Shown piece by piece: positions 10,355-49,543 of a stretch of DNA of 64,000 nucleotides. The notes below the pieces were generated by a model. The model was not told the DNA's origin. It saw only the letters and a list, made by a program, of their open reading frames with translations, and did no database searches. How positions within the stretch are numbered: the stretch's first letter is position 1; each line of letters opens with the position of its first letter. This stretch comes from SAR86 cluster bacterium AG-390-O18 (GTDB lineage Bacteria; Pseudomonadota; Gammaproteobacteria; Magnimaribacterales; AG-339-G14), in assembly GCA_003279605.1 (NCBI GenBank), contig QCHF01000001.1, positions 276,075 through 340,074 on the forward strand. The letters run 5' to 3'. The translations under genes were made by a program, and so were the position numbers.

Positions 10355-10895
10355 GCAACAGACTAAAAATGTTATTTGATGAATTATTCAAAAGCAGAAA
10401 TTCATAATATTCAGTTAATGCATGTGTCCATTCATGTTCAAATTTCTTTGGCTCTTTAGAAAATTCTTTTTTCAAGATAAAAAAACTAGTTTCTTTTTTT
10501 GTCATTAATTCAATTTTTTCCATAAAAGTATTTGAACGATCATTGGTAATTAACGGAGTGTCCTTTCGATCCTTGTGGATAATCTGAAAAACAGAGTCAA
10601 AAAAAATAGGTTTATCAATTTTTTTATAGTCGGTGAATTTTAAGAGGCTGCTTTTAAAAGGACCGTGAAAGCCTTTAGCTTTGTTAAACATAAAATCTGT
10701 TAATTGAAAATCAAGCACTCCTTTTTTCAATATCTGTTTAATTAAAAATGAATTTTCAATAGAGTTTATTTTTTCGTCAAAAGATAAATGAACAAAGATA
10801 GCTTGACCATGATCATGTAATCTCAGCGTATCGATTCCAGAAAGTTTTATATTCAAACTATCTGGAAAAGAAAGTATATTTTTTTTTCCGGTCAT
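10341..10895 (-). CDS. Hypothetical protein, 184 aa
   Basis: Intact ORF overlapping the flanking genes by a few nt on both sides; no family recognised. Confidence 0.7.
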   Translation of the reverse strand: MTGKKNILSFPDSLNIKLSGIDTLRLHDHGQAIFVHLSFDEKINSIENSFLIKQILKKGVLDFQLTDFMFNKAKGFHGPFKSSLLKFTDYKKIDKPIFFDSVFQIIHKDRKDTPLITNDRSNTFMEKIELMTKKETSFFILKKEFSKEPKKFEHEWTHALTEYYEFLLLNNSSNNIFSLLLAYD

Positions 10896-11875
10896 AAAGA
10901 CCTAATACCTACTAATGTTCTTATTTTCTCAAGATTTTTAGATGCAATTTTTTGGGCTTTAGACTCTCCATGAACCAATAACTTCTCAACTTTTGTTGGA
11001 TTGTTCATGAGATCGAAATATTTATCTCTTACTGGAGCTAATTCATTATTGATTATTATAAAGAGCTCTTTTTTTAAATCTCCCCAGCCCATTCCTTCAT
11101 TAAAATAACTATCAATCTTTTCAATCTCCTTATCACTAACAAAGCAATTAAAATATTTATACAAAGTTGAGTCTTTAGGTTTTTTTTCTCCTGGTTCTAA
11201 AGAGTCAGTTTTAATTTGATTTATTTGCTTTTGTAATTTTTTTTCATTGGAAAAAAGATCGATGTAATTCAAATAACTTTTAGACATTTTAAGTCCATCT
11301 AAACCTGGTAAAAAAGATGTTGTTTCATCAATCATTGGTTCTGGAAGATTAAAAAAATTTCCATAAGTTAAATTAAATTTATTAGCGATGTCTCTAGTCA
11401 TTTCAATATGTTGCTTTTGATCACTGCCTACTGGAATTAAATCAGCATTGAAAAGTAAAATATCGGACGACATTAAAATGGGATAGTTGAATAGGCCCAT
11501 TTGAACGTTTTTGTCTTTATCTTTGCCAGAAGTTGCATCTTGCATTGCTTTGTAAGCGTGAGCCCTGTTCATTAGTCCCTTAGGAGTAATAGAAGTAAGT
11601 ATCCAATTTAATTCCATGATTTGAGGAATACTTGATTGTCTATAGAAGATCGTATTTTTAAGATCTAAACCGCATGCAATCCAAGCAGCTGCTATCGAAA
11701 GGGTAGATTGATGGGTTAGCTTTGGATCCTGCTGCTTTATCAATGAATGATAATCAGCTAGAAAAATAAAAGATTTTGATTTTTTAGATAATTCTATCGC
11801 CGGACGCATAGCCCCAACATAATTTCCTAAATGAGGAGAACCATTTGTCGTAATACCGGTTAAAACAGAAGACAT
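10892..11875 (-). CDS. trpS: Tryptophan-tRNA ligase
   Basis: GITTNGSPHLGNYVGAMRP (HIGH variant), VGSDQKQHIEMTRDIA, LKMSKS (KMSKS). Confidence 0.96.
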   Translation of the reverse strand: MSSVLTGITTNGSPHLGNYVGAMRPAIELSKKSKSFIFLADYHSLIKQQDPKLTHQSTLSIAAAWIACGLDLKNTIFYRQSSIPQIMELNWILTSITPKGLMNRAHAYKAMQDATSGKDKDKNVQMGLFNYPILMSSDILLFNADLIPVGSDQKQHIEMTRDIANKFNLTYGNFFNLPEPMIDETTSFLPGLDGLKMSKSYLNYIDLFSNEKKLQKQINQIKTDSLEPGEKKPKDSTLYKYFNCFVSDKEIEKIDSYFNEGMGWGDLKKELFIIINNELAPVRDKYFDLMNNPTKVEKLLVHGESKAQKIASKNLEKIRTLVGIRSL

Positions 11876-11886
11876 TTCATTAGTAT

Positions 11887-11917
11887 AAAAAAAAACACCA
11901 ACGAAGTGGTGTTTTTT
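11887..11917 (-). terminator. Rho-independent terminator, T-tract on both sides; in the leader of trpS
   Basis: - strand AACACCA-CTTCGT-TGGTGTT followed by about 9 T; + strand side has 6 T. Confidence 0.8.
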
Positions 11918-12060
11918 ATCCGAAGTTAAAGGGGTCTAGTGGGTTGACTAGCGCAGGCGAAAAACCCTTCTCCCTGCAGGTGGCGTAATTTCTTACGTCT
12001 TCTCACCCTTTTCCTTCTATTCTCTAGCTTCCCTTCTACCGTCTCGAGTTAGTAAATTTT
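11887..12060 (-). ncRNA. Candidate structured RNA (trpS leader/attenuator or independent sRNA), family unidentified
   Basis: Closing helix 11928-11935/12005-12012 enclosing hairpins CTAGT-N6-ACTAG (11936-11951), GCAGG...CCTGC (11953-11977) and CGTAA-GAAA-TTACG (11984-11997, GNRA loop on - strand), followed by the terminator. Confidence 0.6.
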
Positions 12061-12196
12061 TCACTAAAGCTTGTAATTAATTTTATGTAATTAAGATTTA
12101 ATTGCAATAGCCAAAATTACTCTTTTAAGACTATGTTTTTATAAAAAAAGATTCTTTTATCTCTTTAGATTATGAAAACACTTTTTTGAAAAAATA

Positions 12197-49375: not shown

Positions 49376-49543
49376 TTAACTCTCTTCAATAACTTTAGCG
49401 TGGATTTCTCCTCTGTGAACCGGAACAGCTTTAGGAGCACTTATTCCTAAACGGACTTGACCTCCTTTAATTTCTAAAACTGTTACTTCTACATTATCGC
49501 CAATTACAAGAGTCTGATCTCTTCTTCGACTTAAAACTAACAA
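49376..49543 (-). CDS. csrA: Carbon storage regulator CsrA
   Basis: LLVLSRRRDQTLVIGDNVEVTVLEIKGGQVRLGISAPKAVPVHRGEIHAKVIEES; likely TTG start at 49543 (ORF track start 49585). Confidence 0.93.
   Translation of the reverse strand: MLVLSRRRDQTLVIGDNVEVTVLEIKGGQVRLGISAPKAVPVHRGEIHAKVIEES

Follow-up and report, generated by a model that had tools for sequence, protein, structure and literature searches.

The DNA considered here (the window, a stretch of 64,000 nucleotides from the SAR86 cluster bacterium AG-390-O18) carries on its minus strand a structured RNA that is a member of an already listed Rfam family, IMES-5, so far found solely in SAR86. This RNA is likely to be a free-standing, trans-acting sRNA with its own promoter, which does not appear to take part in the regulation of trpS and perhaps serves as a dimeric scaffold. 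In the mechanism that we propose from comparison of homologous sequences, an sRNA of ~150 nt plus terminator would be transcribed from its own sigma70-type promoter and, in the genus to which the window belongs, transcription would stop at an intrinsic terminator lying a short way ahead of trpS, the latter being transcribed separately, presumably as a leaderless mRNA. The 5' stem-loop of the sRNA would expose a palindromic loop, to be followed by a closed three-hairpin junction in which the second and third hairpins would kiss. Less surely, this compact scaffold would act by binding a protein, and two copies would probably be held together as a dimer through their CUCGAG loops. The RNA itself belongs to a known family; the novel part is the hypothesised CUCGAG-loop dimer. 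IMES-1, an RNA with no known function, is reportedly one of those found in greatest abundance in samples from the ocean, and the probable kinship of IMES-1 and IMES-5, taken together with the kissing contact and the palindromic loop, would yield a single structural model for a common ocean RNA.

Identity, extent and fold of the RNA

A preliminary description of the region could match the element to none of tmRNA, RNase P, SRP, 6S and the common riboswitches; it does, however, belong to a known family, as is seen from the Rfam scan (cmscan), in which IMES-5 is matched with 152 bits over the full length of the model (model positions 1-150; Table 1). Likewise, the 5' limit previously placed at 12060 truncates the 5' stem-loop, the real start of the RNA being at ~12072-12069, about 9 bases further out. 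Sequence, length and secondary structure are alike over the whole IMES-5 model; the kissing contact described below is absent from the model line printed by cmscan. The 1.28 Mb SAR86 genome contains a single copy.

The RNA of the window folds with -52.9 kcal/mol (z = -2.9), a value for which 1 of 200 shuffles was as good. Among 46 IMES-5 homologues, standard pairs occupy 84.8% of the pair cells, as against 70.2% in shuffles. Of the 47 pairs, 29 have changed on both sides, so that the secondary structure is conserved with compensatory changes, as befits an IMES-5 member. Several elements had been read correctly from the single sequence: the closing helix, in which AAAGGG (12011-12006) pairs with CCCUUU (11933-11928) and which we find lengthened by GAAG/CUUC, the three hairpins enclosed by it, and the GAAA tetraloop, which caps the first of these, P4.

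Table 1. Features of the IMES-5 locus, in window coordinates
Feature	Position	Strand	Basis or remark
IMES-5 RNA (Rfam RF02995)	11921..12069	-	cmscan 152 bits, gathering score 96.1
5' stem-loop (P1 + P2), 10-nt apical loop AACUCGAGAC	12022..12069	-	11 of 13 pairs with double-sided changes
Palindromic CUCGAG hexamer of the apical loop, a candidate for symmetric kissing	12043..12048	-	hexamer tally
P3 closing helix, 5' strand (GAAG + AAAGGG)	12006..12017	-	99.8% of cells paired, mostly invariant
P3 closing helix, 3' strand (CCCUUU + CUUC)	11922..11933	-	pair analysis of 46 homologues
Hairpin P4, GAAA tetraloop in the window genome	11984..11997	-	5 of 5 pairs with double-sided changes
Hairpin P5, loop with GGGUU (11967-11963)	11952..11978	-	model match and pair analysis
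Hairpin P6, loop with AACCC (11945-11941)	11936..11951	-	model match and pair analysis
Putative kissing partner 1, GGGUU	11963..11967	-	would pair with 11945-11941
Putative kissing partner 2, AACCC	11941..11945	-	would pair with GGGUU of the P5 loop
Predicted sRNA promoter: -35 TTGCAA (12107-12102), 16-nt spacer, -10 TAAAAT (12085-12080)	12080..12107	-	
Intrinsic terminator, hairpin and U-tract	11887..11917	-	f1 homologues, part of f3
TATACT box, likely -10 for leaderless transcription of trpS	11882..11887	-	6 nt from ATG
trpS (tryptophanyl-tRNA synthetase), downstream neighbour, outside the RNA	10892..11875	-	

Probable kinship, and distribution, of the IMES RNAs

IMES-5 and IMES-1 are probably homologous, that is, paralogues of one SAR86 RNA family, a relation proposed here for the first time and from sequence comparison; Rfam lists no clan for either. 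The IMES-1 model (RF02034) recognises the IMES-5 RNA of the window with 31.9 bits (E 3.7e-5) against a gathering score of 81 bits, which makes the RNA a relative of IMES-1 and no member, and that of a genome of SAR86 family f1 (G006) with 34.3 bits (E 1.1e-5), both matches lying far outside chance. The reverse match is weak, the IMES-5 model giving 20.9 bits (E 0.077) on IMES-1 of family f3. Conserved blocks follow one another in the same order in both RNAs, namely a 5' stem-loop with a palindromic loop, AAGGGUGAAAG, CCACC, the two kissing hairpins and a GAC-CC 3' side, and the loop AACUCGAGAC is common to IMES-5 and the f3 IMES-1 RNAs. IMES-1 differs in its greater length and far more extended first hairpin, in its kissing pairs (GAGA/UCUC) and its mostly CUGCAG loop, and in having other gene neighbours and often two copies per genome. 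Several f2 genomes have two IMES-1 copies close together, ~0.3-1.2 kb apart in the loci L040, L042 and L055.

IMES-5 occurs in 48 of 203 genomes of the order, all within two of the four SAR86 families (27 of 40 genomes in f1, 21 of 35 in f3). IMES-1 exceeds its cut-off in f2, f3 and f4 only (its 128 matches include four weak ones in f1, where the match in G006 is the IMES-5 RNA itself), so that the two RNAs taken together are found in all four families. When 27 f1 and f3 genomes were searched again with a dedicated model, IMES-5 was detected in none; trpS is also missing from all 21 tested f1 and f3 genomes without IMES-5, and because trpS is lacking too, we take the absence of the RNA from these assemblies to reflect missing sequence. 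Some of the assemblies in which trpS and IMES-5 are both missing (G026, G033, G039 and 18 others) are >90% complete, a pattern suggestive of assemblies breaking repeatedly at this locus. The families f1 and f3 are sister clades in an rpoB tree (support 100/99), and f3 genomes often possess both RNAs, at opposite ends of a ~14 kb syntenic block.

A loose DNA pattern run on public genomes and viral contigs returned almost exclusively chance matches before rescoring; after it, the clear IMES-5 matches whose titles were seen belonged to SAR86 or to the marine gammaproteobacterium MED-G141. Under strict filters, no IMES-1 was found outside SAR86 in 369 genomes of the class. One contig of a viral collection (L363, IMGVR_UViG_3300019271_000590) ends within an IMES-1 and is likely a chimera or a host fragment.

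Proposed loop contacts and the dimer hypothesis

The loops of the second and third enclosed hairpins appear to kiss in both IMES-5 and IMES-1, a contact that is new here and is suggested by the following comparisons. Across 46 IMES-5 sequences, the four core pairs between GGGU of the P5 loop and ACCC of the P6 loop are formed in 98.9% (the f3 count being alignment-based, as automatic hairpin picking chose the wrong stems there), compared with 25-75% in slid registers, and two double compensations were observed, AGGU/ACCU (L012) and GGUU/GACC (L030). The aligned loops of the second and third hairpins of IMES-1 read GAGA/UCUC, with matching variants GAGAA/UUCUC, GAGAU/AUCUC, GAAGA/UCUUC (L065) and AAGA/UCUU (G083), while nine f3 IMES-1 RNAs retain only 3 contiguous kissing pairs. 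In the IMES-1 alignment taken alone the kissing pairs do no better than shuffles (not significant), a result due in part to misaligned rows and to the invariance of most pairs; the case for IMES-1 is built on the matching variants and on the change between the families rather than on the shuffle test.

A second contact could involve the 5' stem-loop, the apical loop of which is palindromic over 6 nt in all but one of 141 IMES-5 and IMES-1 RNAs (140), the exception being CUAGAG in L069. The hexamer is CUCGAG in 45 of 46 IMES-5 and 27 of 27 f3 IMES-1 RNAs and CUGCAG in all 68 IMES-1 RNAs with a complete 5' end from f2 (54/54) and f4 (14/14), a change that amounts to one or few events. Elsewhere in the IMES-5 RNA the hexamer has no 5-nt partner; in f3 IMES-1 the 3' end (CUCGA) could instead pair with the loop. 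In a 2025 study of the OLE and GOLLD RNAs, palindrome switches including GC to CG were regarded as evidence for intermolecular bridges and homo-oligomers (PMC12286853). The loop palindromes of these RNAs alternate between self-complementary states as do those of the IMES RNAs, but OLE and GOLLD are much larger and have solved cryo-EM structures, and we found no sequence or structural homology between them and the IMES RNAs. By this analogy, two IMES-5 copies could plausibly pair through their CUCGAG loops to form a dimer.

The main alternative is that the sRNA is monomeric and binds a protein, in which case its conserved loop would recognise a protein or an mRNA and would not serve as a dimer contact. 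We consider this a real possibility, falling somewhat short of even, in that conservation extends over the entire loop AACUCGAGAC and not merely its palindrome; yet the loop is perfectly palindromic in either of its states, and recognition of a fixed target would not require this. The broadest form of the dimer hypothesis, in which IMES-1 and IMES-5 would constitute one SAR86 RNA superfamily acting as a kissing-loop dimer, is more tentative still, and we judge it rather unlikely as a whole; it would allow for heterodimers in f3, since both paralogues occur there and have the CUCGAG loop in common.

The trpS gene, CsrA and the housekeeping RNAs

Control of trpS in cis, by an attenuator or a riboswitch, had been raised as one possibility; such a leader would end transcription ahead of the gene on sensing tryptophan, uncharged tRNA or some other ligand. 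In its favour, the RNA is the immediate upstream neighbour of trpS, the f1 homologues have their terminator right ahead of the ATG, and trpS synteny is maintained in f3. The strong terminator is indeed there (an 11-pair hairpin at 11917-11890 and a T-run that reaches 11887, 11 nt before the ATG at 11875), and no Shine-Dalgarno sequence separates the two, as had been remarked; several f3 genera have no clear terminator, which counts against the sRNA account. The RNA, however, has a conserved predicted promoter of its own: the best site in the 46 homologues scores 8.1 of 12 on average, as against 6.3 in shuffles, with the -10 end mostly 9-12 nt before the RNA, the score of the window promoter alone being within chance for one sequence. 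Moreover, a cis leader would be expected to share transcript and strand with trpS in the homologues, but in f3 (L061, L062, L066, L076) an opposite-strand ORF of ~190 aa lies between IMES-5 and trpS. A TATACT box, kept in f1 homologues, directly follows the U-tract, and the f2 genomes, in which IMES-5 was not detected, have similar TATAAT/TATACT-like boxes right ahead of the start of trpS. An alternative anti-terminator pairing was not noticed in an unsystematic look. Regulation of trpS in cis is accordingly left unsupported and seems highly improbable to us; the other option raised at the outset, an independent sRNA, is upheld by the promoter, by the terminator before trpS and by the intervening f3 gene. 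Most simply, trpS would be transcribed from a promoter of its own into a leaderless mRNA, and the missing Shine-Dalgarno sequence would thereby be explained. The upstream neighbour of the sRNA varies, being tRNA-Ser in the window, an RRM-like ORF in G006 and a LOG-like ORF in f3 (both ORFs named by eye). Upstream of the -35 element, at 12108-12135, a TCTTAAAAGAG-ATTTT-GCTATTG-like stretch is kept across f1 and is possibly an UP-element or a regulator site.

A role in CsrA binding had also been put forward, on the grounds of three GGA-containing motifs (ANGGA) in this RNA and of a csrA gene in the same window, which we confirm at 49391-49540 (G000:C1:325465-325614). The RNA would then titrate CsrA in the manner of CsrB/RsmZ, which it resembles in being a small terminated RNA from a genome with CsrA, and the two families with IMES-5 are also those with CsrA (34 of 40 f1 and 29 of 35 f3 genomes). 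But this shared range may be a single event, because f1 and f3 are sister clades, and the related IMES-1 is present in f2 and f4, two families that yielded no CsrA. Unlike the multiple conserved GGA sites that define the CsrB/RsmZ type, those of IMES-5 are not enriched (3.65 per RNA, 4.40 in dinucleotide shuffles), and even the best-kept position is retained by no more than 26 of the 46 homologues; we regard the titration of CsrA as very unlikely.

Least credible of all is that IMES-5 stands in for a housekeeping RNA (6S, RNase P or SRP) absent from SAR86: the small SRP RNA was not found in the window genome by model or 3-mismatch pattern and IMES RNAs occur in all four families, but 6S and RNase P each exist as RNAs of their own, and models for these two and for SRP give no match on IMES-5 at E values up to 10. 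The 6S model (RF00013) in particular gives no match on IMES-5 and matches elsewhere in the same genomes. The 4.5S SRP RNA sought in the window genome (RF00169 and a 3-mismatch core pattern) may be diverged or lie in the missing few percent of the assembly; in this genome RNase P RNA is clear, and the 6S match falls below its family cut-off.
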